Source: Streptomyces sp. UNOC14_S4
Lineage (GTDB): Bacteria > Actinomycetota > Actinomycetes > Streptomycetales > Streptomycetaceae
Reading direction: 5' to 3'
Assembly: GCF_020740835.1 (NCBI RefSeq)
Contig: NZ_JAINFC010000012.1
Location: forward strand, 1-35,548
Length of the DNA: 35,548 nt
Shown: positions 8,476-31,980 of the stretch, piece after piece
How the letters are laid out: each line of letters starts with the position of its first letter
How positions within the stretch are numbered: the first letter of the stretch is position 1
Made by a program: the position numbers and the translations under genes
The notes under the pieces: model-generated
Database searches by the model: none
Told to the model about the DNA's origin: nothing
Seen by the model: the letters and a program-made list of their open reading frames with translations, nothing else

Positions 8476-9153
8476 TCAGGCGCGGTCGGCGGCCTGCCGG
8501 AGTGCTCGCAGGAAGGTCGCCTCGTCCTGTGCGCCCACGAGCGTGGTGCCGTCGCCGAGGACGAAGGCGGGCACGGTCGCCACCTGTTCGCGCGCCGCGG
8601 CGACGGCGGCCCTGACCTCGGCGAGCTCCTCGTCGGAGGCGAGGTACGCGGCGGCCTCCGCGCCGTCCATCCCGGCGCGCACGGCGCGGTCGACGAGCAG
8701 CTCCGGGTCGGACACGTCGCCGTTCTCGGTGAAGTAGGCGGCGAAGAGCAGTTCCTCCAGCCGGGAGCGGACCGCGGCGCCGTGGCGGCGCCCGGCGAGC
8801 CACAGCAGCCGGTGGGCCCGGAGGGTGTCGACGGCGTAGCCGCTCGCGTTGCGGAAGGTGATGCCGAGCGCCTTGCCCGCCTCGGTGACCTCCTCGCTCA
8901 TGGCCGTGGCCTTGGCGGTGCCGTACTTCCCGGCCAGCCATTCGAGCATGGGCATGGCGTGCTCGGGGTGTTCGCCGTCGATCTGGTACGGGTGGGGCAC
9001 GAGCTCGACGCGGTCCGCGCCGAAGGCCGCGACGGCCTTCTCCAGGTTGCGCTTGCCGATGTAGCACCAGGGGCAGGAGATGTCGGAGTAGACGTCGATT
9101 CTGATGCGGTCCCCCATACGGGAACTCACGGGATGACTCACGGGGTGGCTCAC
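8476..9153 (-). CDS. FrnE/DsbA-family oxidoreductase
   Basis: Thioredoxin-fold protein of the DsbA/FrnE group, which includes the frenolicin-cluster FrnE and 2-hydroxychromene-2-carboxylate isomerases. Counting from the ATG at 9117, the CPWC redox motif is at residues 15-18 in VYSDISCPWCYIGKRN. The helical insert follows, and the cis-Pro loop is in ATVPAFVLGDG. No signal peptide, so cytosolic. Two starts are possible: GTG at 9153 overlaps the upstream stop as GTGA and has GAAGG seven bases before it (225 aa, used here), while ATG at 9117 gives 213 aa but no binding site. The three in-frame GTGs come from a 12-base near repeat. It is the last gene of cluster A and is coupled to a flavin monooxygenase gene, so a role in an oxidative or isomerising step is plausible but unproven. 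Confidence 0.85.
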   Translation of the reverse strand: MSHPVSHPVSSRMGDRIRIDVYSDISCPWCYIGKRNLEKAVAAFGADRVELVPHPYQIDGEHPEHAMPMLEWLAGKYGTAKATAMSEEVTEAGKALGITFRNASGYAVDTLRAHRLLWLAGRRHGAAVRSRLEELLFAAYFTENGDVSDPELLVDRAVRAGMDGAEAAAYLASDEELAEVRAAVAAAREQVATVPAFVLGDGTTLVGAQDEATFLRALRQAADRA

Positions 9154-10430
9154 GCGCTGACCTTCACCACTCGGGCCCGGCGGTCCGGGCGCTGGTTCAC
9201 GGTGTCGGTGTCGAAGGCACCGACCTGGGCGTACCGGGCCGAGATCTCCTTGAGCTCGGCCTCGCTCATCACGTCGTGGATGGAGGCGAAGCCGTCGGGG
9301 GCCCGCTCGTGGGCGATGTTGATGACGATCTCGGGGCCCATCTGCCGGTTCTTCGCCTGCAGTTGGGTCATCGCCGGGCGGCGGCGCTCCTCGTAGGCCG
9401 CGAGCGCCTCCTCGGGGTCCGCGTGCCGGGCCAGGCACTGGGCGAACACCCGGGCGTCCACGATGGACTGGGTGGCGCCGTTGGAGCCCATCGGGTACAT
9501 CGCGTGCGCGGCGTCGCCGAGGAGGGTGACGCGGCCGGCGGTCCAGAAGGGCAGCGGGTCGCGGTCCACCATGGGGTACTCGAAGGCCGTGTCGGCGGTG
9601 CTGACCAGGCCGGGGAGGTCCAGCCAGTCGAAGCCCCAGTCCGCGAAGTGCGGGAGGAACTCCTCGGGGCGGACCTCGCGGTTCCAGTCGGCGCGGTCGG
9701 GCACCTCGCCGCTGTCGGCCCGGCGGGCCACGGCCCAGTTCATCAGGACCGGCTCGTCGGGCGTGGCGCCCATGGTCATCGGGTAGACGACGCCGCGGCG
9801 GCGGTCGTCCCCGGCGATGATCATCGTCCGGCCGTTGAGGAAGGGCTTGGCCCAGGTCGCGCCGCGCCAGACGACGAGCCCGTTCCAGCGGGGCGGGGCG
9901 GCGTCCGGGTGGAGGGCGGCCCGCACCGCGGAGTGGATCCCGTCGGCGCCGAGCAGGACGTCGGCCTCCGTCTCGGAGGTGGCCCCGGTGGAGGGGTGGG
10001 CGACGGACACCCGGAGCCGTCCGGCGGGCATCGACGTAAAGCCGGTGACCCGGGTGTCCGTCACGATCGAGTCCGGTCCGAGCCGCTTGCGCACAGCGTC
10101 GGCCAGCACCATCTGGAGCCGTCCGCGGTGGATGGAGAGCTGGGGCCAGTTGTAGCCCGCGCCGAGACCGCGCGGCTCGTTCCAGATGAGGCTGCCGAAC
10201 CGGTTGTAGTACGACAGCTCGCCCGTGCGCACCGAGACGGCGGCGAGGTCCTCGTAGACCCCCAGCTCGTCCAGTTCGCGCACGGCGTTGGGGAGGATGT
10301 TGAGGCCGACGCCCAGGGGACGGATCTCCCGGACCGTCTCGGCGACGGTGATGTCGGTGAAACCTTCGGCGTGCAGGCTGAGGGCGGCGGCGAGGCCGCC
10401 GATGCCCGCTCCGGCGATCAGGATCTTCAC
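9150..10430 (-). CDS. FAD-dependent aromatic monooxygenase, PhzS-like (copy 1)
   Basis: Class A flavoprotein monooxygenase of 426 residues. It shows GAGIGG (Rossmann FAD site, about residues 6-11), EIRPLGVGLNILPNAVREL, the SIHRGRLQMVL segment, the DG motif LLGADGIHSAVR and the GD motif LLGDAAHAMYPMGSNGATQ. From memory these blocks closely match PhzS (5-methylphenazine-1-carboxylate monooxygenase), rather than the more distant polyketide hydroxylases. Such enzymes hydroxylate activated aromatic rings using NAD(P)H and O2. The start GTG at 10430 follows AGGAAGG and overlaps the PrnB-like stop as GTGA, so the two are probably translated together. A close paralogue lies at 17325-18584. The actual substrate is unknown; there are no phenazine genes in the window. 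Confidence 0.9.
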   Translation of the reverse strand: MKILIAGAGIGGLAAALSLHAEGFTDITVAETVREIRPLGVGLNILPNAVRELDELGVYEDLAAVSVRTGELSYYNRFGSLIWNEPRGLGAGYNWPQLSIHRGRLQMVLADAVRKRLGPDSIVTDTRVTGFTSMPAGRLRVSVAHPSTGATSETEADVLLGADGIHSAVRAALHPDAAPPRWNGLVVWRGATWAKPFLNGRTMIIAGDDRRRGVVYPMTMGATPDEPVLMNWAVARRADSGEVPDRADWNREVRPEEFLPHFADWGFDWLDLPGLVSTADTAFEYPMVDRDPLPFWTAGRVTLLGDAAHAMYPMGSNGATQSIVDARVFAQCLARHADPEEALAAYEERRRPAMTQLQAKNRQMGPEIVINIAHERAPDGFASIHDVMSEAELKEISARYAQVGAFDTDTVNQRPDRRARVVKVSA

Positions 10431-11533
10431 GAGGCGGCCTTCCTCTCCTCGGCGGTGCCACGGGTCAGGTTGGCGTTGTCGCGGGTCAGGTCGAGGATCT
10501 GCTTGAGCAGCTCGACGCTGGCGCCGCCGCTGCCGACCGGGAAGAGCCGCAGGTCCTCCTGGTAGGCCTTGCGGGCGATGCCCAGGTGCCGCCCCCGGAA
10601 GACCATGATCACGCGCAGCAGGCGGAGCAGGGCCTCCGCGCTCTCCACGAGGTGGGGCTCGGAGCGCTCGGTCTCGGCGGGGTCGGCGCCGAACGCGGCC
10701 ACGAGCCGGGTCACGAGCGAGGGGCCGTGCAGCCAGGAGTCGTAGAGCTCGCGCCAGCGGGGCAGGCTGTAGGGGATCGAGTGGGCCAGGAACTCCTGGT
10801 ACTCGGGCCTGCTGTGGTCGGAGGCCCAGACGGACAGGTCGATCAGCCACAGTGGCACCTGGGCGGCGGCGGGGCCCAGGTAGGTCTCGCCGCCGATGGT
10901 GACGTTCTCGTAGTACGGGCGCAGGATGCGCGCGAAGAAGGCCGGGCCGACCTCCTTCACCACCATGTCGATGGATTCGACCATCGCGCCCATCAGGTCG
11001 GTGAGTTCGTCGAGGACGACGGCGAACTTCTGCTCCGCGGGGTCGGTCCGGGACAGCATGTCGCACAGTTCGAGGCCCTGGCGCAGCTGCGGGAAGACCA
11101 TGCGCACGGATTCCTGGAGGACGTACTCCTGGGGGTCGCCGGTGTACGTGCGCTGCCGCTCGTCGGTGGGGTTCCAGGTGGTGTAGTGGTGCACGGTGTC
11201 CCGGGGGATCATGCCGGTGCGGCGGCCGAGCTCCTGGAGCACGGGGACGACCTCGGGGACGACGGCCGCGGGCTCGGTGTCGTGGCGCTTGAGGGAGCCG
11301 AGCAGCATGCCCAGGTCGCGCATCGCGGCGAGGCACTCGTCGGTGGAGTAGAGGGCCACCGCGTCGAGGCCGGGCGTCAGAGCGCGGAGCATGGCGGTCA
11401 GCTCGGCCACGGCGGCGCGGGAGTTGAGCTCGGGGAGGCGGCTGAGCGGCCCGTCCGCGAGGAGTGGGTCCAGGGCTCTGACTTTTTCTGTCTGCAGAGG
11501 GTTGCCGTGGTCCATGAAGAGGTCAGAAGTCAT
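10427..11533 (-). CDS. PrnB-like heme enzyme (IDO/TDO superfamily), 368 aa
   Basis: I recognise this as a homologue of PrnB, the pyrrolnitrin enzyme that rearranges (7-chloro)tryptophan to an aminophenylpyrrole and belongs to the heme indoleamine/tryptophan dioxygenase superfamily. Shared blocks include CLAAMRDLGMLLGSLKRH (about 67-84), EPAAVVPEVVPVL, HHYTTWNPTDERQRTYTGDP (115-134), VTIGGETYLGPAA (211-223) and FRGRHLGIARKAY (312-324), where His316 matches the PrnB axial heme ligand. The length is close to PrnB's ~360 residues. The start is the ATG at 11533, with TGGAGA seven to eight bases upstream; the ATG at 11557 has none. It is coupled to the flavin monooxygenase downstream. No tryptophan halogenase (PrnA/PrnC) or PrnD is present, so an unhalogenated Trp or other aromatic substrate is likely. 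Confidence 0.85.
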   Translation of the reverse strand: MTSDLFMDHGNPLQTEKVRALDPLLADGPLSRLPELNSRAAVAELTAMLRALTPGLDAVALYSTDECLAAMRDLGMLLGSLKRHDTEPAAVVPEVVPVLQELGRRTGMIPRDTVHHYTTWNPTDERQRTYTGDPQEYVLQESVRMVFPQLRQGLELCDMLSRTDPAEQKFAVVLDELTDLMGAMVESIDMVVKEVGPAFFARILRPYYENVTIGGETYLGPAAAQVPLWLIDLSVWASDHSRPEYQEFLAHSIPYSLPRWRELYDSWLHGPSLVTRLVAAFGADPAETERSEPHLVESAEALLRLLRVIMVFRGRHLGIARKAYQEDLRLFPVGSGGASVELLKQILDLTRDNANLTRGTAEERKAAS

Positions 11534-11592
11534 GAATTGTCTCCAGAAAGTGGGCATGACGCCGCCCGCGGCGGTGTGGGGAAGGCGGACGG

Positions 11593-11682: not shown

Positions 11683-13053
11683 TTAGTGGCGGTGGCCGGT
11701 GCCGGGCGTCCGCGGGGCCTGTGCGAGGACGAGGTGGACGTTGGTGGACGAGATGCTCTGTCCGTTGACGGCCGCGATCACGGGGCGCCCGTCCTGCGAG
11801 GGCAGGGGCTGCGACCGGGTAGGGACGACCAGGGGCAGCGCGTCCCAGTCGACGGCGGGGTGCGGCGTGGTGAAGTGGAGGCTGGGCGGCACGGTGCCGT
11901 GTTCGAGGGCGAGCACGGTCTTGATGACCCCGCCGACGCCCGCGGCGGCCTCGGTGTGGCCGATGTTGGTCTTGAGCGAGCCGACGAGGCAGGGGTGGCC
12001 CGCGGGCCTGCCCTCGCCCAGCACGTCGGTGAGCGCGCCGAGTTCGACGGGGTCGATGCGGGTGCCGGTGCCGTGGGCCTCGACGTACGCGACCTCGCCT
12101 GGGACGACCCCGGCGTCCTCGTAGGCCCAGCGCATGGCGGCGGCCTGGCCCTCCCGCGAGGGGTCGGTCAGGCGGTCCTTGGCGCGGCCGTCGTTGCTGA
12201 CGGCGCTGCCGAGGATCACGGCCCGGACGCGGTCGCCGTCGGCGAGCGCCCGGTCCAGCGGCTTGAGGACGACGACGCCCGCGCCGTCGGAGCGGACGAA
12301 GCCGTCGGCGGTCGCGTCGCCGAACTTGCAGCGGCCGTCCGTGGAGAGCGCGCCCGCCCGGGAGAGCATGACGTTCGCCGCGGGGCCGAGGACGAGGCTG
12401 ACGCCGCCGGCGAGTGCCATGTCGGCCTCGCCGCCGCGCAGGCTGCGCACGGCCAGGTGCAGGGCGACGAGGGAGGACGCCTGCGCGGTGTCGACGGTGA
12501 CGCTGGGGCCGCGCAGGTCGAAGGCGTACGAGAGCCGCCCGGCCAGCAGGCCGCGCTGGTGACTGCCGCTGAAGGAGTCGAGGTCCAGGGTGTCGAGGCC
12601 GCGGTCGCGGAGGGCGTCCCAGTGGTCGGAGTGCGACTGGCCGACGAACACGGCGGTGCGGCTGCCCGCGTGGCGCCCGGGCGGGAGCCCGGTGTCACGG
12701 AGCGCGGCGCGGGCGGTCAGCAGGAGCAGCCGCTGCTGCGGGTCCATGTCCGCGATCTCGCGGGGCTCCACACCGAACTCCTCGGCCGGGAAGGCGTCCG
12801 GCCCGATGGCCTCGGCGAGCCCGTCGAGGAAGCCGCCGCGGCGGCTGGTGCTCTTCCCGGGCGTGCCCGGGTCCGGTGCGTGGAACTCCTCGGTGTCGTA
12901 CCGCGATTCCGGGATGTCGCCGATGGCGTCCACGCCGTCGGCGAGGAGCTCCCAGAGCTCGTCGGTCCCCCATGCGCCCGGATAGGCGCAGCCCATGCCG
13001 ATGACGGCGACAGGCATTCGTGTGTCAGGCCCGTGGCGGTGCTGCCCGGTCAT
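11683..13053 (-). CDS. Stand-alone ketosynthase with Cys-to-Gln active site (KSQ), 456 aa
   Basis: Beta-ketoacyl synthase of the type I modular fold: VAVIGMGCAYPGA at the start, then DPQQRLLLL (104-112), a full N-terminal half, EAHGTGT with His327 and KTNIGHTEAAAG with Lys361 and His366. The nucleophile position reads VDTAQASS: Gln191 replaces Cys, encoded by CAG, which cannot arise from TGC or TGT by one substitution. KSQ domains in polyketide loading modules decarboxylate malonyl-ACP instead of condensing. Here the domain is a separate protein with no AT, ACP or other module. The C-terminal NGQSISSTNVHLVL departs from the usual FGxSGTNAH. The start ATG at 13053 follows GGGGGGAAGCAGG. It probably works with an ACP or substrate encoded elsewhere; a non-catalytic role is also possible. 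Confidence 0.9.
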   Translation of the reverse strand: MTGQHRHGPDTRMPVAVIGMGCAYPGAWGTDELWELLADGVDAIGDIPESRYDTEEFHAPDPGTPGKSTSRRGGFLDGLAEAIGPDAFPAEEFGVEPREIADMDPQQRLLLLTARAALRDTGLPPGRHAGSRTAVFVGQSHSDHWDALRDRGLDTLDLDSFSGSHQRGLLAGRLSYAFDLRGPSVTVDTAQASSLVALHLAVRSLRGGEADMALAGGVSLVLGPAANVMLSRAGALSTDGRCKFGDATADGFVRSDGAGVVVLKPLDRALADGDRVRAVILGSAVSNDGRAKDRLTDPSREGQAAAMRWAYEDAGVVPGEVAYVEAHGTGTRIDPVELGALTDVLGEGRPAGHPCLVGSLKTNIGHTEAAAGVGGVIKTVLALEHGTVPPSLHFTTPHPAVDWDALPLVVPTRSQPLPSQDGRPVIAAVNGQSISSTNVHLVLAQAPRTPGTGHRH

Positions 13054-13263: not shown

Positions 13264-14181
13264 TCAGTCGTTCTTCTTGGCCCAGATGTGCCAGGGCTGA
13301 GCGGATATCCACTCGCCGATCGGCGTCAGACGGATGCCGAGCCGCTGCTCGGTGGCCTTCGGGTCGGCGGCGAAGAGCTCCGGCTCCCGGCCCTCGGCGG
13401 CCCAGCGGTAGATGCCCGCGACACCCGCGGCGGCGTCGGCGCCGACGACCTGGCCGAGGCCCGCCTCGAACTCCGCCGGGTCCAGGGCGAGGTAGGTCAC
13501 CTCGCGGCCCAGGGCCCTGGCGAAGGCGGCGGCGAGCTCTGGGCCGGTGACGGCCTCGGCGCCGCCGATCTCCAGGGTCTCGCCCTCCAGGCCCTCGGCG
13601 CCGAGCGCGGCGACGACGGCGGCGGCGAGGTCGGTGTGGGACAGCCAGGCCACGCGCCGGCCGGCGGGCAGCGGGTAGGCCAGCACACCGTCGTCGACCA
13701 GCGCGGGGCCGTTCCAGGGGCTGAACAGGTTGTCCAGGTAGACCGGCGGGCGGACGACGACCAGCGGCACGCCGCTGTCGCGCAGGATGCCCTCGACAGC
13801 GCGGCGCGTCTCGAAGGAGGCGTACGGCGTCTTCTCGCCCGGCAGCGGGGTGTTGACGTTGTACACCAGGCGGCGGACACCGGCGGCCACGGCGGCCTCG
13901 GCGACGTTCCGGGCGTAGGTCTCGACGGTCTCCTGGTCGTAGACCAGGGGCATGACCAGGGCGGCATGGGTGATGCCCTCGAAGGCCGCGCGGACGGCGG
14001 CGGCGTCGGCCAGGTCGCCCTGGACCATCGTGACGCCGCCTGTGGCCTTGTCCGCCCCGACCTCGCGGCGGGCGAAGCCGCGCACCGCGTGGCCCTGCTC
14101 CGCCAGGAGGCGGGCGACCGCGCCGCCCTGGAATCCGCTGGCCCCGAATACCAGGTACCGGTGCCCGTTCGTGTCAGTCAT
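13264..14181 (-). CDS. NmrA-like NAD(P)-binding protein, 305 aa
   Basis: Atypical short-chain dehydrogenase of the NmrA/HSCARG group. The Rossmann motif is near the N-terminus as LVFGASGFQGGAVARLL (about residues 10-26), followed by GFARRE and VQGDLADAAAV. The substrate-side part includes RPPVYLDNLFSPW and the conserved WLSHTDLAAAVVAAL. The usual Tyr-x-x-x-Lys pair of SDR catalysis is not evident, which is normal for NmrA-like proteins that sense NADP(H) or reduce specialised substrates. The start ATG at 14181 has GAGGAAA upstream. A tandem 11-base repeat precedes it at 14206-14227, so it may begin a separately controlled transcript. It could reduce an intermediate of cluster A or act as a redox sensor; the sequence does not decide. 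Confidence 0.85.
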   Translation of the reverse strand: MTDTNGHRYLVFGASGFQGGAVARLLAEQGHAVRGFARREVGADKATGGVTMVQGDLADAAAVRAAFEGITHAALVMPLVYDQETVETYARNVAEAAVAAGVRRLVYNVNTPLPGEKTPYASFETRRAVEGILRDSGVPLVVVRPPVYLDNLFSPWNGPALVDDGVLAYPLPAGRRVAWLSHTDLAAAVVAALGAEGLEGETLEIGGAEAVTGPELAAAFARALGREVTYLALDPAEFEAGLGQVVGADAAAGVAGIYRWAAEGREPELFAADPKATEQRLGIRLTPIGEWISAQPWHIWAKKND

Positions 14182-14296: not shown

Positions 14297-15727
14297 TCAG
14301 CCAGAGGCGCCTTCGGCGACGCTTTCGACGGCGGGCGCGGGCGGCACGGCCGCGGGTGTGCGCAGGGTCAGGCTCAGGAGCGCGGCCACGGCGGATATCG
14401 CGGCGGCGACCAGGAAGGCCGCCTGGAAACCCGACGTCAGCGCCACGGGGCCGTCGGACGTGCCCGTACGGGCCGAGGCCACCGCCGTCAGCACCGCCAG
14501 CCCGAGCACGGAGCCGATCTGCTGGCTGGTGTTGATGAGCCCGGACGCCAGGCCGACCTCGTCCGTGCCCGCGTCCATGGTCGCCGCCACATTGGTGGTG
14601 ACCGCGGCCAGGGGCAGGCCCACGCCGAGGACGATGCTGGGCGCGAGGACGTCGTCGGTGAAGGAGCCGTGCGCGGAGAGCGCCGACAGCCAGGCGAGGC
14701 CCGCGGCGATGAGCACGAAGCCCGCGGCCATCACCGTCCGCAGCCCGAACCGGCCGATGAACCGGTCCGTCGCCCCCGCGACCACCACGACGACCAGCGA
14801 CAGCGGCAGCAGCCCCAGCCCCCCGGCCACCGGCTCGAAGCCGAGCACCGCCTGCATATACAGGCTGACCAGGAAGAACATCGGGAACAGCGCCATCTGC
14901 GCGAGCCCGCCGAGCACATTGGCCAGGCGCAGCGTGGGCCGCCCGAGCACCTTCAGCGGCACGAGCGGCTGAGCGACGCGCGACTCGATCACGGCGAAGG
15001 CCACGAGCAGGAGCACGGCGAGGGCCGCCGGGACCAGCGTGGTGGCCGCGGTCCAGCCCGCCTCCCCCGCGTTGACCAGGGCGTAGGCGAGAAGCCCCAG
15101 GCCACCGGTGACGGTGAGGGCGCCGCTGATGTCGAAGCCGCGCCCGCCGCCCTCCTCCCGCGCCTCCGGCAGCACGCGCCAGGTGCAGGCGATGAGCACG
15201 ACGCCGACGACGACGTTCAGCGCGAAGGTGGAGCGCCAGCCGAGCCAGCTGGTGAGCACGCCGCCCAGCACCGTGCCCGCCGCGCCGCCCGCGCCGGCCA
15301 TCGCGGCGAAGATGCCCAGCGCCTTGTGGCGTTCGGGCCCGTCGGCGAAGAGCGTGAGCAGCAGGGCGAAGGCGGAGGCCGCGGCGAGCGCGGCGCCCAC
15401 GCCCTGCACGGCGCGGGCCGTGATCAGCCAGGCCGCGCCGTCGGCGAGGGCTCCGGCGAGCGAGGCCGGCACCAGGACGGCGAGGCCCGCCGCGAACAGC
15501 TTCCTGCGGCCGAACAGATCGGCAGCGCGGCCGCTGAAGAGCAGCAGGCCGCCGAAGGTGATCAGGTAGGCGTTCGCCACCCAGGACAGGCCGCTGGGCG
15601 AGATGCCGAGCTCGGCGCCGATCGACGGCACGGCGACGTTGATGATCGCCGTGTCGAGGATCAGCAGGAACTGGGTACAGGCGAGCAGCGCGAGCGCGAG
15701 CCGGCGGTGGGATGCCATGGACGTCAC
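14297..15727 (-). CDS. MFS drug/metabolite exporter, DHA2 (14 TM) family, 476 aa
   Basis: Proton-driven efflux pump in the cytoplasmic membrane, EmrB/QacA-like. TM1 carries FLLILDTAIINVAVPSI, the cytoplasmic motif A is GRAADLFGRRKLF, and the antiporter motif C region is GAGGAAGTVLGGVLTSWLGWRSTF. About fourteen hydrophobic segments are present. The GTG start at 15727 overlaps the stop of the HpaB-like gene as GTGA; the ATG three codons later (15718) is an alternative. Translational coupling to a biosynthetic gene makes it the probable exporter, and perhaps self-resistance determinant, of the cluster A product. Confidence 0.9.
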   Translation of the reverse strand: MTSMASHRRLALALLACTQFLLILDTAIINVAVPSIGAELGISPSGLSWVANAYLITFGGLLLFSGRAADLFGRRKLFAAGLAVLVPASLAGALADGAAWLITARAVQGVGAALAAASAFALLLTLFADGPERHKALGIFAAMAGAGGAAGTVLGGVLTSWLGWRSTFALNVVVGVVLIACTWRVLPEAREEGGGRGFDISGALTVTGGLGLLAYALVNAGEAGWTAATTLVPAALAVLLLVAFAVIESRVAQPLVPLKVLGRPTLRLANVLGGLAQMALFPMFFLVSLYMQAVLGFEPVAGGLGLLPLSLVVVVVAGATDRFIGRFGLRTVMAAGFVLIAAGLAWLSALSAHGSFTDDVLAPSIVLGVGLPLAAVTTNVAATMDAGTDEVGLASGLINTSQQIGSVLGLAVLTAVASARTGTSDGPVALTSGFQAAFLVAAAISAVAALLSLTLRTPAAVPPAPAVESVAEGASG

Positions 15728-17226
15728 GCGGCGAACCCTGCGGGCTCGTCGGCGAGTTCGTACCCGTCGAGGCAGGACTGGGCGAGGCGCTCACAGAGGT
15801 CCGGGCTGCCGTCGCGGACCATGGACGGCAGGTAGATGTGCGGGGCGCCGTGGTAGAAGCGCTCGTACTGCTCGTGGCGCCCGGCGAACTCGGAGCCGAG
15901 GGCGTCCCAGGCGAGCTTGAAGAGCTTGACGCGCTTCTCCGGGCCGGCGCCGGGCGAGCGAACGTACTTGGCGACCAGGTCGCCGATCACGGGGTGGCGG
16001 AGGTCGAGGCCGGAGGCCGGGAGCTGGATGAGCCCGCCGCCCGCGAGCGTCTTGATCTCCTGGAGGACCTTGGGGTAGACGTCGGCGGCCATGAAGCGGT
16101 GCGCCGAGGCGATCTCCTTGTTGATCTGCACGGCGCCGTCGCCGCCGGGCACGGCCTCGTAGGAGGCCTCGGCGGCCAGCAGCATGGACTTGGCCATGTT
16201 CAGCCAGCCCATGAGGCGGCCGATCTGGATCTGCACGGGCGGCAGTTCGTAGGTGCCGTTGGCCTTGGCGATGAGGATGCCGAGGCCGACGAGGAACTCC
16301 AGCTTGGTCCAGAAGCGGGTGGCCGCCTGGTGGACGAAGTTCCAGTACGCGGGGGTCACCCACCACTGCTTGAAGGATGCCTCGACGTCGCGGTAGACGA
16401 GCACGTTCTCCCACGGGACGAAGACGTCCTCGCAGATGAGCATGGAGTCGTTCTCGTCGAAGCGCGAGGACAGCGGGTTGTCGAAGACGGTGCGCGCGGC
16501 GGCCTCGTAGGAGGTACGCGAGATGAACTTCAGGCCCGGGGTGTCCAGCGGGATGGAGAAGCTGAGCGCGTAGTCGGCGTCCTTGGCCGGGAGGGGCTCG
16601 ATGGTGCCGACGATGATCTCGTTGCCGAAGATGGCCGCGGTGCCGATCATCTTCGCGCCGCGCACGACGATGCCGCCGTCGAGCTCCTTGACGACCCTGA
16701 TGTAGAGGTCGTCGCGCTCCTGCTCGGAGGCGGCCTTGGTACGGTCCGCCTGCGGGTTGGCGAGGGTGAACGACTGGTAGAGGTCGCCCTGGGACATGCG
16801 GCGGTAGTAGGCGTCGAGGTTGGCGGTGCCGTCGAACTCCGCGCCCGCGAAGACGCCGGGCAGGGCGGCGAAGCCGGCGATGCCGGAGGCCATGTAGTCG
16901 GGAGAGCGGCCGAGGAAGCCGTAGCTGGCCTCCGACCAGGTCTTGAACGCCTTGCGGCGGGCGACCAGATCCTCGTGACTGCGCGGGATCGCGTAGGCCC
17001 GATGGATCCGGGCGTCCGCCCCCTCCGCCCTCTCCGGCCCTTCCGGCCGCACGGTGAGGACGTCGCGGAACGCCGGGTCGTGCGTCATGTCGTACAGACC
17101 GGCGATCGAGCGGACCGTGTTGCGGAATGCCGGGTGCGTGGTGACGTCCTTGACGAGTTCACCATCGAGCCAAATTTCGCGTCCGTCACGCAGGGACTCG
17201 ATGTACTCCTGGCCAGCGCGGGTCAT
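15724..17226 (-). CDS. HpaB-like FADH2-dependent phenol monooxygenase, 500 aa
   Basis: Two-component flavin monooxygenase of the 4-hydroxyphenylacetate 3-hydroxylase family, with the acyl-CoA-dehydrogenase fold. The N-terminus GQEYIESLRDGREIWLDGE is diagnostic. The central region has RDDLYIRVVKELDGGIVVRGAKMIGTAA and LICEDVFVPWENVLVY, and the helical C-terminal domain includes SGLDLRHPVIGDLVAKYV and HIYLPSMVRDGSPDL. Such enzymes ortho-hydroxylate phenols, including free or carrier-bound tyrosine-type substrates, using reduced flavin from a separate reductase. No HpaC-like reductase is in the window, so one must be supplied from elsewhere. The ATG at 17226 has AGGAG six to seven bases upstream. 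It lies 98 bases downstream of a flavin monooxygenase gene and is coupled to the exporter. The substrate in this cluster is unknown. Confidence 0.9.
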   Translation of the reverse strand: MTRAGQEYIESLRDGREIWLDGELVKDVTTHPAFRNTVRSIAGLYDMTHDPAFRDVLTVRPEGPERAEGADARIHRAYAIPRSHEDLVARRKAFKTWSEASYGFLGRSPDYMASGIAGFAALPGVFAGAEFDGTANLDAYYRRMSQGDLYQSFTLANPQADRTKAASEQERDDLYIRVVKELDGGIVVRGAKMIGTAAIFGNEIIVGTIEPLPAKDADYALSFSIPLDTPGLKFISRTSYEAAARTVFDNPLSSRFDENDSMLICEDVFVPWENVLVYRDVEASFKQWWVTPAYWNFVHQAATRFWTKLEFLVGLGILIAKANGTYELPPVQIQIGRLMGWLNMAKSMLLAAEASYEAVPGGDGAVQINKEIASAHRFMAADVYPKVLQEIKTLAGGGLIQLPASGLDLRHPVIGDLVAKYVRSPGAGPEKRVKLFKLAWDALGSEFAGRHEQYERFYHGAPHIYLPSMVRDGSPDLCERLAQSCLDGYELADEPAGFAA

Positions 17227-17324: not shown

Positions 17325-18584
17325 TCAGACGGTCCAGGGCGAGCCGGTACTGGCGGCCACGGGATCGAAGGCACCGATTTCGGCGTGGCGCCGTGCGACA
17401 TCGGCCAGTTCGGCCGCGGGTATCACATCGCTCGCCCGCCGGAATCCTTCGGGCGCCCGGTCGTACGTCATGTCGATGACGATTTCCGGGCCCATATTGC
17501 GATTGGCGAGCTGGAGTTCGGTCATGGCGGGGCGGCGGTGTTCCTCGTACGCGGCGAGCGCGTCCTCGGTATTCCCGCCCGTTGCCAGGCAATAGGCCAG
17601 GGCCCGTGCGTCGATGATGGCCTGGGTGGTGCCGCCCGAGCCCATCGGGCACATGGCGTGCGCGGCGTCCCCGAGCAGCGTGGTGTGCCCGAAGGACCAG
17701 CGGGGCAACGGTTCCCGGTCGAGCATCGGGTACTCGAATGCCCCGGCCGAGTCCGCGAGCAGTGCGGTGACGTCGAGGAAACCGAGGTCCCAGCCCTCGA
17801 AGTGGGGCAGGAACTTCGTCTGCGGCACTGGCCGGTTCCAGTCGCTGCGGTCGCCGTCCGCCCCGCCGTCCACGGGGCGTGAGGCGGCCCAGTTGACGAG
17901 GACGCGGCCCTCGGCGTCGGACTCCGATGACATCGTGTACGCGACGACCTTCTGGGTGCCGTCGCCGGTGACCAGCATCGCGTTCCCACCGAGGAACGGA
18001 GGCGCCCAGGTGGTGCCCCGCCACACCGTCGAACCCCGCCACGAAGGCGCGCCCTCGTCCGGGTGGAGCGTGGCGCGCACGGCCGAGCGGATGCCGTCGG
18101 CACCCACGAGGACATCGGCGCGCTGCGTCGAGGACGAGGCACCGCGACCGTGGTCGAGGGCCGCTTCGAGCCTGCCGTCCGGCAGTTCGGTGAAGCCCGT
18201 CAGCCTCGCGTCGGTGACGATGGCGTCCGCGCCGAGACGAGCCCGCACGGCCTCGGCGAGCACCGTGTGGAGACGGCCCCGGTGGAGCGACAACTGGGGC
18301 CAGCGGTGGCCGGATCCGGCGCTCCGGTCGTCCCGCCAGATCAGCCCGCCGGTGCGCGCGTAATAGCGGATTTCGTCGGTGCGGGCGGAGACGGTGACGA
18401 GTTCGTCGAAAAGCCCGAGCGCGGCCAGCTCACGTACCGCATTGGGCAGCAGATTGACCCCGGCGCCCAGCGGACGCAATTCGGGCGCCGCCTCGACAAT
18501 ACGCACCCTGTCGAATCCGACATGGTGCAGACTCAGCGCGGCCGTGAGCCCGCCGATTCCAGCCCCTGCTATCAGAATTTCCAC
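17325..18584 (-). CDS. FAD-dependent aromatic monooxygenase, PhzS-like (copy 2)
   Basis: Paralogue of the monooxygenase at 9150-10430, 419 residues. It has the same layout: GAGIGG at the N-terminus, ELRPLGAGVNLLPNAVREL, QLSLHRGRLHTVL, the DG motif VGADGIRSAVR, YPMLDREPLPRW and GDAAHAMCPMGSGGTTQ. Both copies also share a C-terminal MGPEIVI..RAP.GF region. The two probably arose by duplication and act at different positions or on successive intermediates. The start is GTG at 18584, preceded by GGGGGG; the frame stays open to 18704 upstream, but that stretch is the repeat-rich promoter region. This is the first gene of the cluster A minus-strand run, divergent from the AraC gene, so its promoter lies in the 243-base space between them. 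Confidence 0.9.
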   Translation of the reverse strand: MEILIAGAGIGGLTAALSLHHVGFDRVRIVEAAPELRPLGAGVNLLPNAVRELAALGLFDELVTVSARTDEIRYYARTGGLIWRDDRSAGSGHRWPQLSLHRGRLHTVLAEAVRARLGADAIVTDARLTGFTELPDGRLEAALDHGRGASSSTQRADVLVGADGIRSAVRATLHPDEGAPSWRGSTVWRGTTWAPPFLGGNAMLVTGDGTQKVVAYTMSSESDAEGRVLVNWAASRPVDGGADGDRSDWNRPVPQTKFLPHFEGWDLGFLDVTALLADSAGAFEYPMLDREPLPRWSFGHTTLLGDAAHAMCPMGSGGTTQAIIDARALAYCLATGGNTEDALAAYEEHRRPAMTELQLANRNMGPEIVIDMTYDRAPEGFRRASDVIPAAELADVARRHAEIGAFDPVAASTGSPWTV

Positions 18585-18827: not shown

Positions 18828-19805
18828 ATGAGTCGCGTCGACGACACTTTGAGTGACCTGCTGATGCCGCTCCGTTTGCACAGTGTTTTTCACAGCAGAT
18901 GGCTTGCCCGTGGACCCTGGGCGATTCAGGGGGAGGACGAGAGCTGCGCGATCATCCATTACATCCTGCGCAACGACTGCTGCGTGAACTTTCCCGGGGA
19001 TTCCTCGCCCGTGACCCTGCGCGAGGGGGATCTCGCGGTGTTCCCGCACGGCACGGGCCACACCATCGCGGACCGCGCGGTGCCGCTCGCCCCGTCCCTC
19101 GACACGGTGCTGCCGGAACGCCGTCCCGGCGCCTCGGGCATCGTCGAGATCGGCACGTCCGGCCCCGAGACCGAGCTGATCTGCGGCAGCCTGCACTACG
19201 ACGCCGTCAGTAAACCCCCGGTCTACGCGGCCCTCCCCGACGTCATCGTCCTGGAGCGCGACACGCTGGCGAAGGAACCGCTGCTGACGCGCACCCTGGA
19301 GAGCCTCACCGCGGAGACGGCCCGGCAGGATCCCGGCAGCCAGCTCATCGTGACCCGTGCCTTCGAGATGGTCTTCGTACTGTCCCTGCGGGTGGCGCTG
19401 GAGCAGCTGGCGGAGAGCTCCCCCGACCTGCACGCGCTGCGCCACCCCGGCATCAGCAAGGCCCTTCTGGCGATCTACCGTGAGTACGCGGAGCCCTGGA
19501 CGATCGACTCCCTCTCCCGGCAGGCCGGGATGTCCCGGTCGGCGTTCACGAAGACCTTCCGCGAGCTGGTGGGCGAGGGACCCGGCCAGCATCTGACGAA
19601 GCGCCGGATGCAGAAGGCGGCGACGCTGCTCGCCGAGACCACGGTCCCGCTCACCACGATCCCCGAGCTGGTCGGCTACCAGAGCTCCGTGGGTTTCCAT
19701 CTGGCGTTCCGCAAGATGTTCGACCTCCCTCCAGGAGAGTTCCGACGACAGGCACAGGATTCCGAGGGCCCCGGCCGCGTACTGGCGGGCGCCGGGCGGC
19801 GGTGA
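18828..19805 (+). CDS. AraC-family transcriptional regulator, 325 aa
   Basis: DNA-binding regulator with an N-terminal cupin (AraC_binding_2/Cupin_6 type, with VTLREGDLAVFPHGTGHTI at about residues 61-79) and a C-terminal pair of helix-turn-helix motifs. The first HTH is IDSLSRQAGMSRSAFTKTF and the second TTIPELVGYQSSVGFHLAFRKMF, followed by the usual LPPGEFRR. Length 325 is normal for the group. The ATG has AAGGA six bases upstream. It is transcribed away from cluster A across 243 bases holding the 8-base repeats and the inverted repeat, so it is the likely pathway-specific regulator of that cluster. Its ligand is unknown. Confidence 0.92.
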   Translation: MSRVDDTLSDLLMPLRLHSVFHSRWLARGPWAIQGEDESCAIIHYILRNDCCVNFPGDSSPVTLREGDLAVFPHGTGHTIADRAVPLAPSLDTVLPERRPGASGIVEIGTSGPETELICGSLHYDAVSKPPVYAALPDVIVLERDTLAKEPLLTRTLESLTAETARQDPGSQLIVTRAFEMVFVLSLRVALEQLAESSPDLHALRHPGISKALLAIYREYAEPWTIDSLSRQAGMSRSAFTKTFRELVGEGPGQHLTKRRMQKAATLLAETTVPLTTIPELVGYQSSVGFHLAFRKMFDLPPGEFRRQAQDSEGPGRVLAGAGRR

Positions 19806-19832: not shown

Positions 19833-20915
19833 CTACGGGACCGCCGTGTCCGGAGCCGCACCCGGCCGGGAGGCCGGAGCCGCACCCGGTTGGGGCGGCT
19901 CGCCGAAGGCGCGGGCCGCGGCACGGCGCCAGCGGTTCGCGGGCAGGGACGGACGCAGTGCGGCGAGCCCTCCGCAGTATTTGGTGAAGACGGCGGGGCG
20001 CATCCCGCACCCGTGCAGGAGGCGGTCGGCCGCGCCGAGATGACCGGCCGTCTTCACCTCGACCAGGACGAGGGCCGGGTCGCACCGCACGGCCCGGCCC
20101 GTCCGCAGATCGGAGCAGACCAGCCCCGCGTCGCACGTGACGCGCTCCCCGTCGGCGACCAGCGTCACGCGCAGATAGCCGGTGCCGAGGGAAGGGGTCA
20201 GCCCTTCCGGCGCGTCGATGCCGTACGCGTGACGCAGGGTCCGGGCGAGGAAGGCCCGGCAGTCCGCGTCGGGCCGGGCGCCGCGCCCGGCCCGCGAGAT
20301 GCCGGGCACAGCCAGCGCGTGGCGGTGCTTCACCGTGTCGCCGCGGCCGCCCTTGAGCTTGATCTCGAACTGCCGCTCGCCGGTGTCCTCGTACACCCGC
20401 TCGCGGATCTTGAAGCGAAGACGGCGCCCCTGCCGGTGATCGTGAAAGGACCGCAGGCCCGGTGTGTCGTAGTAGGTGGAGTGATAGCGGAAGGCACGCC
20501 GCCCGTCGATCGTCAGGGCCCGGAAGCCTCCTCCGGCGCACCGGGAGTCGGTGAGCTGCTCCGCCAGACGCAGGAAGGTCCGTACCGGCACCAGATAGCT
20601 GCGGTCGAAGCGGGCGAGGAGAGCGGAGCGCTCATTGACCTCGCCGAGGGAGATGGGCACAGCAGCGTGGGCGGCGTCGGTGACGGCCTGTCGGGCGTCC
20701 GAGCCGACTCGGGGTCCGGGGGCCTGCTGGGCGTCGGTGACGGCCCTGGCTTCGGTGGACCGGTGGACGCCGACGGACCGGCGGACGTCGGTGACGGCCT
20801 GACCCCCGACGGACAGGCGGGCGTCGGTGACGGCCTGGACCCCAGCAGATCGGCGGGCGTCGGTGACGGCCGCGCCCGCTGCCCGTCGAGCGAGCGGCAC
20901 CCGTGCGGCCGTCAC
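19833..20915 (-). CDS. VTC-domain protein (CYTH-superfamily fold), 360 aa
   Basis: The region from about residue 100 is a VTC domain, related to the polyphosphate polymerase core of yeast Vtc4 and to triphosphate-tunnel enzymes. Visible blocks are FDRSYLVPVRTFLRL, RYHSTYYDTPGLRSFHDHR, RRLRFKIRERVYEDTGERQFEIKLKGGRGDTVKHRH, LRVTLVADGERVTCDAGL and VLVEVKTAG, carrying the alternating charged residues that line the tunnel. The first ~85 residues are a low-complexity extension with five AVTDA-type repeats. GTG at 20915 is chosen because it overlaps the DUF4956 stop as GTGA; GTG at residue 86 would remove the repeats but has no binding site. VTC and DUF4956 genes are often paired in Streptomyces, commonly with a CotH-like gene, which is absent here. 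Polyphosphate synthesis or signalling is a family-based guess. Confidence 0.85.
   Translation of the reverse strand: MTAARVPLARRAAGAAVTDARRSAGVQAVTDARLSVGGQAVTDVRRSVGVHRSTEARAVTDAQQAPGPRVGSDARQAVTDAAHAAVPISLGEVNERSALLARFDRSYLVPVRTFLRLAEQLTDSRCAGGGFRALTIDGRRAFRYHSTYYDTPGLRSFHDHRQGRRLRFKIRERVYEDTGERQFEIKLKGGRGDTVKHRHALAVPGISRAGRGARPDADCRAFLARTLRHAYGIDAPEGLTPSLGTGYLRVTLVADGERVTCDAGLVCSDLRTGRAVRCDPALVLVEVKTAGHLGAADRLLHGCGMRPAVFTKYCGGLAALRPSLPANRWRRAAARAFGEPPQPGAAPASRPGAAPDTAVP
20674..20870. repeat. Five copies of GCGTCGGTGACGGC within the VTC gene
   Basis: Copies begin at about 20674, 20731, 20786 (variant ACGTCGGTGACGGC), 20821 and 20857, spaced roughly 57, 55, 35 and 36 bases apart. Each encodes AVTDA or a close variant on the minus strand, mixed with RRSxGV-like residues. 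The repeats confine themselves to the N-terminal extension and not the VTC domain. Confidence 0.8.
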
Positions 20916-21640
20916 GCCGGGCCCCAGGCGGGTGCGGGGCGGCGCGTGGGCTCGGCGGGCGCGGCCGGGCAAGCCGCTTTCGGGTCCAGGGCCCCGAGCA
21001 GGAAGCCGGTGTCCACGTCCCGGGAGACGGCCCTGGCCTCCCGGATCTCCCGGGCCTCTCGGGCCTCCGATGTGTCCGGCCCGGATTCGCGGTAGCGCAC
21101 GTCGACGACCATCAGGTCACGGACGAAGTCCACCTCCATGACCGTCCAGTGGAGCGGCTCGCCCAGTCGGCGGGCCAGGTCGGCGCGCAGCGCGTCGGAG
21201 CCGGCGTGCACGGTGTCGATGGTCACGACAGCCCGGCGGGAACGCGCCAGAAGCCGGGGGTTGTCGGCGGCCCAGACGGTCAGGAGCAGCACGGCCGCGA
21301 GCCCCGCCCCGACGGGGAGCGGCAGACGCGGCAGCCCGCACACCAGGCCGAGGACGAGCGTGGTGAAGTAGTACGCGACCTCCTCGTGCTGCACGGCGTC
21401 CGACCGGAGCCGGACGATCGACAGCACTCCGAAGAGGCCGAAGCCCAGCACCGCCCCGCCACCACCGCCGCCGACTTCGGCGAGGGCGGCGACCACGGTG
21501 AACAGGCCGATGTTCAGAGCCAGATAGGCCGGTACGAGGTCGCGGCGCCGGCGCCGCCGCCAGTAAAGGGCGAAGGTCAGCAGGCAGACCGCGACGAGGT
21601 CGAGCGCCAGATGAGGGGCGATGTGCCGCAGTGCGTCCAT
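20912..21640 (-). CDS. DUF4956 membrane protein, 242 aa
   Basis: Membrane protein with about four hydrophobic segments in its first half (residues ~10-28, 38-55, 62-75 and 90-125) and the family-typical block GFGLFGVLSIVRLRSDAVQHEEVAYYFTTLVLGL. The cytoplasmic C-terminal half contains a small alpha/beta region (RRAVVTIDTVHAG, then LGEPLHWTVMEVDFVRDLMVVDVRYRE), followed by an EAREAREIREARA stretch. This gene is coupled to the VTC-domain gene by a GTGA overlap, a conserved arrangement in actinobacteria, so the two probably form one complex at the membrane. The ATG at 21640 is the start; GGGA lies some ten bases upstream. Function unknown. Confidence 0.88.
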   Translation of the reverse strand: MDALRHIAPHLALDLVAVCLLTFALYWRRRRRRDLVPAYLALNIGLFTVVAALAEVGGGGGGAVLGFGLFGVLSIVRLRSDAVQHEEVAYYFTTLVLGLVCGLPRLPLPVGAGLAAVLLLTVWAADNPRLLARSRRAVVTIDTVHAGSDALRADLARRLGEPLHWTVMEVDFVRDLMVVDVRYRESGPDTSEAREAREIREARAVSRDVDTGFLLGALDPKAACPAAPAEPTRRPAPAWGPA

Positions 21641-26786: not shown

Positions 26787-27350
26787 TCAGCGACCGGAGT
26801 CCGCCGACACCTCCTCGCTGACGGCGAGCTCCTCGCTGATGGATTCCACCCGCGGCTCGGCCAGCCGGACGTAGTCCTCGGTGTCCAGCGCCAGGGAGCG
26901 GTCCAGCTCGATGTTGAAGAACATCTCCTCGTGCGCGAGCAGGGCCGGGTCCACCACGAGTTCCAGGGCCGGGTCGAAGGTGAACGGGACGATGGCACCG
27001 CTGGTGCACCCCGTCAGCCGTTCGGCCGTCGGCTGGTCCGCGAACATCGCGTGGCGGGCTTCGCACAGCTCGGCGATCCGGCCCAGGTCCACGCGCCGGT
27101 CGCCGGGGACGGTCGCCAGGACGTAGTGCGACGTCTTCTTGGTCTTCTTGACCCGCACCACGACGCACTTGGCCGCCTGGGCGAGGTCGTTCCCGCGCAG
27201 CGCGCTGACGACGTCGGTACGCCCCTCGGCCTCGTGCTCGATCCGGCGGAAGCGGGCCCCGCCCTCCTCCAGCAGACGCAGGAGCCTGCCCGAGGCGGGT
27301 TCCTGCGTGAAGGCGGGCTCCCCGGTCTGCTGTGCCGATCCCCCGGTCAT
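26787..27350 (-). CDS. YbaK/ProX-type aminoacyl-tRNA deacylase, 187 aa
   Basis: Stand-alone editing-domain protein of the YbaK/EbsC/ProXp superfamily, which hydrolyses wrong amino acids from tRNA in trans. The fold signature is present: RRIEHEAEGRTDVVSALRGND leading to AAKCVVVRV with the conserved Lys61, then a central strand HYVLATVPGDRRVDLGRI, and the substrate-loop GCTSGAIVPF at 114-123. It has an N-terminal extension of ~20 residues and an acidic C-terminal tail. The ATG at 27350 overlaps the oxygenase stop as ATGA, making it the last gene of the cluster B operon. Within a pathway encoding amino-acid ligases and an oxygenase, trans-editing self-protection against a product or intermediate that mimics an amino acid is the attractive inference; catalytic use in biosynthesis is an alternative. 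Confidence 0.88.
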   Translation of the reverse strand: MTGGSAQQTGEPAFTQEPASGRLLRLLEEGGARFRRIEHEAEGRTDVVSALRGNDLAQAAKCVVVRVKKTKKTSHYVLATVPGDRRVDLGRIAELCEARHAMFADQPTAERLTGCTSGAIVPFTFDPALELVVDPALLAHEEMFFNIELDRSLALDTEDYVRLAEPRVESISEELAVSEEVSADSGR

Positions 27351-28156
27351 CCCCACACCACCGCCGAGCCGAGCTCCTCGTCGGCGAAGCCGAGGAAGAA
27401 GCCCATGGTGATCCGGTCGGAGCCGGAGACCCGCTCGATCGAGTGGTACTGCATCGGGTTGATCACGTAGACGTCGCCGGCCTGCGGCTTGAACTCGTGA
27501 CCGGGGTGGCCCTCGACCACGCCCTCGTCGTAGCCGAGACCGCCCTCGATCTTGAAGGTCTCGTCCTCGGGCTGCCACGGCCGCCGGTAGATGCGCAGCT
27601 CGCCGCCCTCGTCGCACTCCTGCACACAGACGACGCAGCTGAGCTGCTGGGCGAGGCCGGCCAGCACGATGCCCGTGTCGGCCGCGTCCCGCATGATGTT
27701 GTCGTTGTGCAGCGGGTTGCGCACGCCGTCCGCGTGGATGCGGACGACCGAGGCCGCGTACTCCCGGCCGTCCGGCTCGCGGGCCGGCTCGAGCGAGTCG
27801 AGGCCGAAGGCCTTGCGCAGGCCCTCGCGCACGCGCTCGGCGAGGTCGAAGGAGACGCCGTCGAGCATCGCCTGCGCGTCCTTGCTCTCCTGGAAGTACG
27901 TGTCCAGGTCGGACAGGTGCTTGGCCAGGTACGGGCCGATCGTGGTGAGCGTGCCGTTGGAGTAGCTCGTCGTGGAGGCGTTGGCGAACAGTTCCCCGAT
28001 GCGCTCCCGGTTCTTGGTGAACGCCTCCTCGGGCAGCAGGTTGCGCAGCACGACCACGGCCACCTCCCCGGTCGCCAGCTTGCGCAGCAGCTCGTGGCCG
28101 GGCTGCTCGGTGGCCGCGTCGATGACCACGCGGGCGAAGGTGTCAGTGCTGGACAT
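27347..28156 (-). CDS. 2-oxoglutarate/Fe(II)-dependent oxygenase, 269 aa
   Basis: Predicted non-heme iron hydroxylase. The double-stranded beta-helix iron ligands appear as HND at residues 150-152 (NPLHNDNIM) and His238 in NPMQYHSIERVSGSDRITMGFF, with Arg248 as likely 2-oxoglutarate carboxylate ligand. These enzymes couple decarboxylation of 2-oxoglutarate to hydroxylation, desaturation or cyclisation, often of amino acids. The ATG at 28156 has AAGGAG eight bases upstream; both lie inside the 3' end of the amidotransferase gene, which overlaps it by 14 bases. Downstream it is coupled to the deacylase. Cys-rich VVCVQEC strands suggest a buried core. Substrate unknown; an amino acid or peptide of cluster B is the natural candidate. 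Confidence 0.85.
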   Translation of the reverse strand: MSSTDTFARVVIDAATEQPGHELLRKLATGEVAVVVLRNLLPEEAFTKNRERIGELFANASTTSYSNGTLTTIGPYLAKHLSDLDTYFQESKDAQAMLDGVSFDLAERVREGLRKAFGLDSLEPAREPDGREYAASVVRIHADGVRNPLHNDNIMRDAADTGIVLAGLAQQLSCVVCVQECDEGGELRIYRRPWQPEDETFKIEGGLGYDEGVVEGHPGHEFKPQAGDVYVINPMQYHSIERVSGSDRITMGFFLGFADEELGSAVVWG

Positions 28157-28910
28157 GAAGGGCTTCTCCTTGACGTGCTGTGCTGCTCGTGCTGCTCGTG
28201 CTGCCGTTGAGAGGGATTTCGATGAGGCTGTCGGGAGCGAGGGGCTCCCACTGGTCCAACGGCGCCAGATCGGGTATCCGCTCCGACGCGATGACCGTGT
28301 ACCGGTCCGTGCGCAGGCGGAACATGCCGAAGTAGACGGGCGAGGCGACCCCGGGTGAAGTCCAGTGGATGACGTACGCGACGTCGGAGTTCACCGCGAT
28401 GGCGTTGCCCGAACTTCCCCCGGCGGGAATCGCCCGCAGCCGTTCGAGCGTCTGCTGCTCGTCGAGCCTGCGGCTTCCCTCGGGGATGATGTAGTCGAAG
28501 TATTCCCGCGAGTCGAACTCGGACTCCGGAAGGCCGAGTTTCTGGTGGACCGTGGGCAGGAAACCGTTGTGCATGAAATGCCAGGTGGTCTCGGCTTCCC
28601 GCGTCAGGGGATGCGTGAACTGCAGCCCGTGGTTCTTCGGGAGCGTCGCGTGCCTGGCGTGGACGGCCAGGAAATCGGTGTCGAGCTCCGCGACCGGGGA
28701 TTCGTGATGGCTGTCCGTGAGCGGCCGCACGTCGCGGTGCAGCGCGATGCCCTGCGGGGCATCGGGGTCGCGCCAGAGCGCTCCCCAGCCGTTGGGGTGC
28801 ACATCGGTGGGCCCGTCGTGGTCGGCGGTGCGGCCACAGCTCATCGCCTCGGCGGCTTTGAGGATGTCGTTCGCCGAGAACTGCCCGGAGGCCAGGATGA
28901 GTCGGCACAT
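28143..28910 (-). CDS. Class II glutamine amidotransferase-like (Ntn hydrolase), 255 aa
   Basis: Stand-alone class II glutaminase fold, like YafJ/EgtC and the N-terminal half of asparagine synthetase B. It starts MCRLILASG, so Cys2 becomes the N-terminal nucleophile after Met removal. HARHAT (84-89), N93, THP at 99-101 and HNG (114-116) form the glutamine pocket and oxyanion hole. The C-terminus ends in a Ser/Thr repeat (STSSTSS) encoded by two GCTGCTCGT units at 28182-28199, probably slippage-derived. It lies six bases after the ATP-grasp gene and overlaps the oxygenase start. Two roles fit: feeding ammonia to the PP-loop ATPase of the same operon, as a split asparagine-synthetase-type pair, or removing a gamma-glutamyl group, as EgtC does. 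Confidence 0.88.
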   Translation of the reverse strand: MCRLILASGQFSANDILKAAEAMSCGRTADHDGPTDVHPNGWGALWRDPDAPQGIALHRDVRPLTDSHHESPVAELDTDFLAVHARHATLPKNHGLQFTHPLTREAETTWHFMHNGFLPTVHQKLGLPESEFDSREYFDYIIPEGSRRLDEQQTLERLRAIPAGGSSGNAIAVNSDVAYVIHWTSPGVASPVYFGMFRLRTDRYTVIASERIPDLAPLDQWEPLAPDSLIEIPLNGSTSSTSSTARQGEALHVQH

Positions 28911-28916
28911 GGTCGG

Positions 28917-30263: not shown

Positions 30264-30288
30264 GGACCTCTCCTTGTCCCCCTCCATG

Positions 30289-31824: not shown

Positions 31825-31908
31825 GATGAATTTCCTTGCTGACGTGCGAATGTGCCACCGCAGCCGTGCGCCGTGACCCCCGTCGTGGCTCCGAACACGC
31901 CGACGGCT

Positions 31909-31980
31909 GCGGGATGGTGAATTGAGGTCAGGGGAGCGGGACAGGTAAGCGGGATGGTGAATTGGTGAATTGAGGTCAGG
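31909..31980. repeat. Direct duplication in the leader of the PP-loop gene
   Basis: GCGGGATGGTGAATTG occurs at 31909-31924 and 31949-31964, and GGTGAATTGAGGTCAGG at 31916-31932 and 31964-31980, the second copy reaching into the exporter stop codon. Inverted CCGCAGCCGT (31858-31867) and ACGGCTGCGG (31903-31912) flank the adjacent stretch. The 151-base gap is the largest inside the operon and looks like an expanded intergenic leader. Confidence 0.7.

Follow-up and report, generated by a model that had tools for sequence, protein, structure and literature searches.

A PrnB-lineage heme enzyme with a PhzS-like monooxygenase partner in a non-halogenating Streptomyces gene cluster family

PrnB, the heme enzyme of the pyrrolnitrin pathway, catalyzes one of the oddest heme reactions known. 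The enzyme works in fresh crude extract but yields no product when purified, and partner proteins are named among the elements that the purified enzyme may be missing (accessible text of PMC11791213, 2024). Rapidithrix naturally produces the unhalogenated 3-(2′-aminophenyl)-pyrrole, which has also been proposed as a theoretical pyrrolnitrin intermediate (accessible text of PMC2630848). The PrnB homologue described here is encoded within a 35,548-nucleotide stretch of Streptomyces sp. UNOC14_S4 (contig NZ_JAINFC010000012.1; the whole of this stretch is referred to as the window).

The gene (10427..11533, minus strand) lies in a frame open from 10427 to 11557, of which the ATG at 11533 was taken as the start, giving a protein of 368 aa. 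An earlier note on this DNA had called this protein a PrnB homologue and proposed a profile comparison with the PrnB family and a tree against IDO/TDO, and that assignment was borne out. The protein matched PF08933 (PrnB) with 138.3 bits (E 3.8e-40; cut-off 27), while a PDB sequence search returned PfPrnB (Pseudomonas; 2v7i, 2.1e-59) and FbPrnB (9dfg, 8.2e-49), followed by SO4414 (2.4e-5). Identity over aligned columns was 37% to PfPrnB and 30% to FbPrnB. The PF08933 match alone was rejected as proof of a PrnB, since this family also includes SO4414-type enzymes, one of which (in locus L098) is encoded beside a kynureninase-like gene. Moreover, an AlphaFold model built on 26 aligned sequences (mean pLDDT 83) matched the PrnB crystal structures with Z-scores of 39–40 (40.0 for 2x67) and an rmsd of 1.8–2.1 Å over 333–346 residues, as opposed to Z-scores of 28.5 (15% identity) for SO4414 and 26–28 for IDO. 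TDO, TyrH and MarE were absent among the structure matches listed for the model, which excludes nothing. In a PrnB tree of 99 rows (L023, L073 and L025 having been dropped), the proteins of the three locus types detailed below (A, B and C) and of a gammaproteobacterial MAG (L079) grouped with PfPrnB (support 0.998). No NCBIfam model matched the protein, such proteins bear the name "monodechloroaminopyrrolnitrin synthase PrnB family protein" in the four RefSeq records opened, and the nearest named relative was from Streptomyces griseocarneus (L031, 95%). By sequence, tree and model, the window protein thus belongs to the PrnB lineage and not to that of SO4414 or IDO.

The IDO fold of the model would also suit an IDO/TDO-like dioxygenase that produces N-formylkynurenine on the way to a hydroxyanthranilate-type metabolite, as would the kynureninase-like neighbor of the SO4414-type protein in L098 and an alpha/beta hydrolase encoded at 1983-2813, which we presume to resemble kynurenine formamidases. 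Nevertheless, the E-values of PrnB and SO4414 differed by 54 orders in favor of PrnB, and no kynureninase-type gene was found among the ten cluster proteins scanned, so that neither the closest solved relatives nor the gene context are those of the IDO/TDO/SO4414 group. We therefore consider a dioxygenase role improbable.

The genes around prnB run on the minus strand in the order FMOb, HpaB, MFS, NmrA, KSQ, PrnB, FMOa and DSBA, with AraC divergent. FMOb (17325..18584, minus; 3c96, E 7.7e-91) is another PhzS-like monooxygenase that shares 57% identity with FMOa, and is followed by an HpaB-type flavin monooxygenase (15724..17226, minus; PF11794 6.4e-93, PF03241 1.2e-49) that matched 4-hydroxyphenylacetate 3-monooxygenase structures at 1e-95. 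Next are an EmrB-like MFS transporter (14297..15727, minus; PF07690 2.3e-46), whose best NCBIfam model (TIGR00711) stayed below its cut-off, and an NmrA-family NAD(P)-binding oxidoreductase (13264..14181, minus; PF05368 2.1e-28). The standalone ketosynthase (11683..13053, minus; PF00109/PF02801) carries the motif VDTAQASSL, in which Gln replaces Cys, and keeps both His, in agreement with its earlier designation as a KSQ. The same Gln and both His were found in all 12 type A rows, among which the same species may in some cases be represented twice. No carrier protein was present among the ten cluster proteins scanned, small frames being outside the scan. At the far end lies a DSBA-family thioredoxin-fold protein (8476..9117, minus; PF01323 1.4e-32), which we take to be FrnE-like and whose CPWC motif recurs in 13 of 13 rows (one row being the window again). 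The divergent AraC-family regulator with a Cupin_6 domain (18828..19805, plus; PF12852, PF12833) is adjoined by a VTC-domain protein (19833-20972).

This locus belongs to a large conserved cluster family. A PF08933 survey of the genus gave 50 places (six not fetched) in 49 of 392 genomes, the window's own included. These comprised 35 genomes with a PrnB-type protein (40% or more to that of the window), eight with a distant one and six left unfetched, which puts the share of sampled genomes of the genus that carry the PrnB lineage at roughly one in ten (35 to 41 of 392). Across a phylum sample of 396 genomes, PF08933 was found besides the window's own only in G502, the protein of which was SO4414-type. 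Scanning of genome contigs yielded 54 named loci, i.e., 7 of type A, 46 of type B and the single MAG locus. Type A consists of AraC, FMO, HpaB, MFS, NmrA, KSQ, PrnB, FMOa and DSBA, with a BBE oxidase in six of the seven loci; one of them (L036) lacks HpaB, MFS and the second FMO. Type B has NmrA divergent from AraC, HpaB, MFS, PrnB and FMOa, and no KSQ or DSBA. AraC and NmrA are each present in 7/7 type A and 43/46 type B loci (the three others being cut by contig ends), HpaB in 6/7 and 43/46 (L050 being one type B locus without it), and MFS in 6/7 and 40/46, with six uncut type B loci lacking it at the thresholds used. The MAG carries PrnB and FMO, with the DSBA gene on the opposite strand. 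A minimal type C, found in three other genomes of the genus, consists of PrnB, FMO and a 282-aa gene. The latter encodes an LCM-family methyltransferase in L100 and looks similar in L086, whereas in L093 it was recognised solely by its place and length.

Further PrnB homologues were seen outside these types. On a Streptomyces plasmid (L112, 9950-15435), PrnB and FMO are accompanied by a carrier protein, a ketosynthase with its Cys intact and, by eye, a possibly broken KSIII-like frame; the intact Cys beside PrnB and FMO suggests that the KSQ descended from a normal ketosynthase. Another plasmid (L113, 9980-11973) encodes a PrnB homologue (34%) with a GNAT acetyltransferase, and not the monooxygenase, behind it. 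Eight loci of the same genus (L087-L092, L099, L102) encode distant homologues (28–32% identity by tblastn), all with Arg for Trp120. A GHMP kinase and a methyltransferase neighbor those in L088 and L090, with a PLP decarboxylase as well in L088, and no known pathway was recognised from the neighbors scanned at these two loci. At the stronger PF08933 place in G344 (319 bits), no match to the window PrnB was obtained by tblastn.

Residue roles in PrnB were taken from the accessible text of PMC11791213, and residue numbers were matched to the window protein by our own alignment. The presumptive heme ligand put forward in the earlier note, His316, was found in place within FRGRHLGIARKAY and aligned with the heme ligand His313 of PfPrnB. 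Loss of the heme site, which that note had named as a finding that would speak against a PrnB, was not seen: of the 102 aligned rows, which represent 84 different sequences and include the two crystal structures, 101 kept His316, and the one exception (L025) looks frameshifted near its end, just before this position. Apart from L025, every row of types A, B and C and that of L079 had His316 and Ser335, and Trp120 was found throughout. Ser335 aligned with the carboxylate-binding Ser332 of PfPrnB and Ser319 of FbPrnB, and Tyr117 with Tyr104 of FbPrnB (Val117 in PfPrnB), while the position of Gly210-Gly211 in FbPrnB reads Ala-Ala in the window and Ala-Val in PfPrnB. Types A and B share clade residues in the pocket region (Trp229 for Phe, Asp112 for Glu, and His115 for Leu/Tyr), and such sequence changes could give rise to chemistry other than that of PrnB. 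The loop of residues 330–335, including Ser335, had a pLDDT under 50 in the model, and the equivalent loop has been described as disordered in PfPrnB.

The kept residues bear on the main alternative, according to which the PrnB homologue would be a tryptophan (indole) hydroxylase and the FMOs would oxidise hydroxytryptophan further, with no rearrangement. Retention of the heme and carboxylate residues of PfPrnB and FbPrnB weighs against it, although a hydroxylase might retain them too. His-ligated heme tryptophan hydroxylases, which Shi is said to have reported in 2023, would provide a precedent, and several of the cluster neighbors are likewise oxygen-adding or redox enzymes. For PdnC, a PrnB homologue, hydroxylation of tryptophan in paenidepsin has been predicted, but the protein does not clade with Luz15, so that this second precedent is itself unproven (accessible text of PMC13036774). 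Hydroxylation without rearrangement therefore seems a possible but distinctly less favored role.

The absence of PrnA/PrnC halogenases and of PrnD, also noticed earlier, held among the 20 window proteins scanned (ten in the cluster, ten others), and the pair of flavin halogenases and the Rieske oxygenase that accompany prnB in a pyrrolnitrin gene cluster was not found at the window. FMOa did match the Trp_halogenase profile (23.5 bits; cut-off 21), over its residues 2–64 and thus with its FAD-binding part only. An ordinary pyrrolnitrin pathway with halogenases encoded elsewhere could work with scattered genes, given that PrnB accepts unchlorinated tryptophan (accessible text of PMC11791213). 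However, a genome-wide search revealed no full-length flavin halogenase, its sole Trp_halogenase match (25.5 bits) covering profile positions 1–62, and halogenase, PrnB, halogenase and Rieske genes are grouped in both of the proteobacterial plasmid prn loci that were opened, out of four, making this scenario very unlikely. Trp_halogenase also matched in 5 of 14 control genomes, a halogenase-bearing positive-control genome not being among the tests, and FMOa was left unlisted by the genome search, so that weak matches can escape it. PF19112 occurs in one gene elsewhere in the genome, and the absence of PrnD is claimed for the scanned window proteins.

A WelO5-family 2-oxoglutarate oxygenase (27347-28156) was considered as pathway halogenase but set aside, since it starts ~7.5 kb beyond the regulator among other genes and, by eye, has HxD rather than HxG. 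It is part of a second, unrelated-looking gene group (27347-34479), together with a class II glutamine amidotransferase, two ATP-grasp enzymes, an MFS transporter and a protein without Pfam match in which a GGGKDSSY PP-loop-like motif was seen by eye.

Directly downstream of prnB, FMOa (9150..10430, minus) encodes a PhzS-like FAD monooxygenase (2rgj, E 1.6e-103), and the prnB stop codon and the FMOa GTG start overlap by 4 bases (the common GTGA), in support of the coupling proposed earlier. An FMO was located directly downstream of PrnB in 87 of 92 loci with a PrnB at 40% or more (where the window and the corresponding locus of its genome are both counted, as are some genomes more than once), and in 53 of the 54 named loci. 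The exception among the latter, L046, has a run of 100 Ns at this position; the other misses were L020 and L095, which represent one genome with an aminotransferase-like gene (by eye) in place of the FMO, and L073 (Streptomyces sp. Root1304) and the identical L023, where a single 841-aa frame spans PrnB and the PhzS-like FMO. A lost stop codon could explain this frame, and separate translation is possible because a ribosome-binding-like stretch and an ATG are still inside. The PrnB and FMO trees concur, i.e., (C,(A,(B,L079))), and PrnB and FMO distances over 65 loci were correlated at 0.915, with 0 of 999 permutations as high. Shared descent alone explains such a correlation, which indicates that the genes travel together and is no proof of protein contact. 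In three type A loci FMOb could be separated, and there it grouped with the type B FMO. The near-constant partner of PrnB is the PhzS-like monooxygenase, and not the KSQ.

Tentatively, PrnB and this FMO may constitute an obligate two-enzyme unit, in which the FMO would act on the PrnB product or an unstable intermediate (e.g., by decarboxylative hydroxylation) to yield an undescribed hydroxylated aryl-pyrrole or pyrrolinone scaffold, and the FMO may even be the partner that purified PrnB is missing. The two pyrrolnitrin operons opened have no such FMO, which makes it less likely as a general PrnB partner.

Tryptophan as precursor, as suggested in the earlier note, found support in relatives of the cluster, where trp genes adjoin four loci, but not in the window itself. 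TrpC and TrpD were present in four of seven type A loci, and TrpG and TrpE in three. In L032, L033 and L035, the cluster continues with BBE, TrpC, TrpD, a GntR/PdxR-like regulator (by eye), TrpG and TrpE (Pfam assignments from L033), whereas in L034 the contig runs out past TrpD, within the regulator. In L033, TrpC begins at the final base of the BBE stop codon. TrpC and TrpD act after anthranilate and would thus supply indole or tryptophan; having trpD and trpC would make little sense if anthranilate were all that the pathway requires, a further argument against the dioxygenase. The presence of these genes next to the cluster in four relatives suggests tryptophan as the precursor. The TrpE site that presumably reads LLES in feedback-sensitive enzymes reads LLEN in L033 and L035 (two readable of three). 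In L072, a BBE is present and the remainder of the locus is free of trp genes; L036 stops immediately behind its BBE, and the window and L031 have neither at the locus. No close copy of the L033 TrpE was found in the window's genome (best 32%), while a 48% BBE is encoded on another of its contigs.

The analysis shows the PrnB lineage with its predicted fold and conserved residues, the operon, a conserved partner, and trp genes in relatives; on this basis we infer the substrate, the rearrangement, the order of steps, and the roles of HpaB, KSQ (catalysis included), NmrA, DSBA and MFS. The most likely product, at roughly even confidence, is a hydroxylated, unhalogenated aminophenyl-pyrrole. The PrnB-lineage enzyme would bind tryptophan or hydroxylated tryptophan by heme-amine coordination and rearrange it to an unhalogenated aminophenyl-pyrrole-type product, which would pass to the co-inherited FMOa to be oxidised next. 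HpaB would add an ortho hydroxyl and, in type A, FMOb a further oxygen, while reactive products of quinone- or quinone-imine-like kind may be dealt with by NmrA and the DSBA-family protein. Export of the compound would fall to the MFS pump, with AraC in control.

That purified PrnB gave no product could be due to the lack of a partner, among other explanations (accessible text of PMC11791213). Because the PrnB lineage is tied to one flavin partner, once in a single frame, it provides a concrete partner and homologues to try, the FMO being the obvious candidate. The cluster family points to a class of tryptophan-derived metabolites for which we know of no product, and hydroxylating enzymes stand where pyrrolnitrin clusters have chlorinating ones, in an apparently undescribed kind of cluster from a soil bacterium. 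No description or product of a Streptomyces PrnB cluster was found among the open-access papers searched, most subscription papers and MIBiG being outside the scope of this search. The non-halogenating cluster, its spread and its near-constant PhzS-like partner appear to be new, while the enzyme family itself is known and named.

Compared with known systems, SO4414 (1zee/2nwb), a putative 2,3-dioxygenase, shares the IDO fold but differs in its lower likeness to the window PrnB (Z 28.5, 15% identity) and in the kynureninase-like neighbor of its close relative in L098 (525 bits in PF08933). Producers of marinoquinoline and 3-(2′-aminophenyl)-pyrrole resemble the proposed pathway in their unhalogenated aminophenyl-pyrrole, which a PrnB homologue makes in Rapidithrix thailandica; to our knowledge, the marinoquinoline pathway has no PhzS-like or HpaB enzyme. 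PdnC, compared by description only, is likewise a PrnB homologue outside pyrrolnitrin, but is a predicted tryptophan hydroxylase beside an NRPS gene in Paenibacillus (accessible text of PMC13036774). Finally, the pyrrolnitrin PrnB enzymes (2v7i/2x67, 9dfg) share with the window PrnB the fold, the heme His, the equivalent of Ser332/319, the Tyr104 of FbPrnB, and Arg111, Trp120 and Asn121, whereas the latter is set apart by its limited identity (37%/30%), by its Trp229, Asp112 and His115, and by having, instead of PrnA, PrnC and PrnD neighbors, a PhzS-like monooxygenase next to it.
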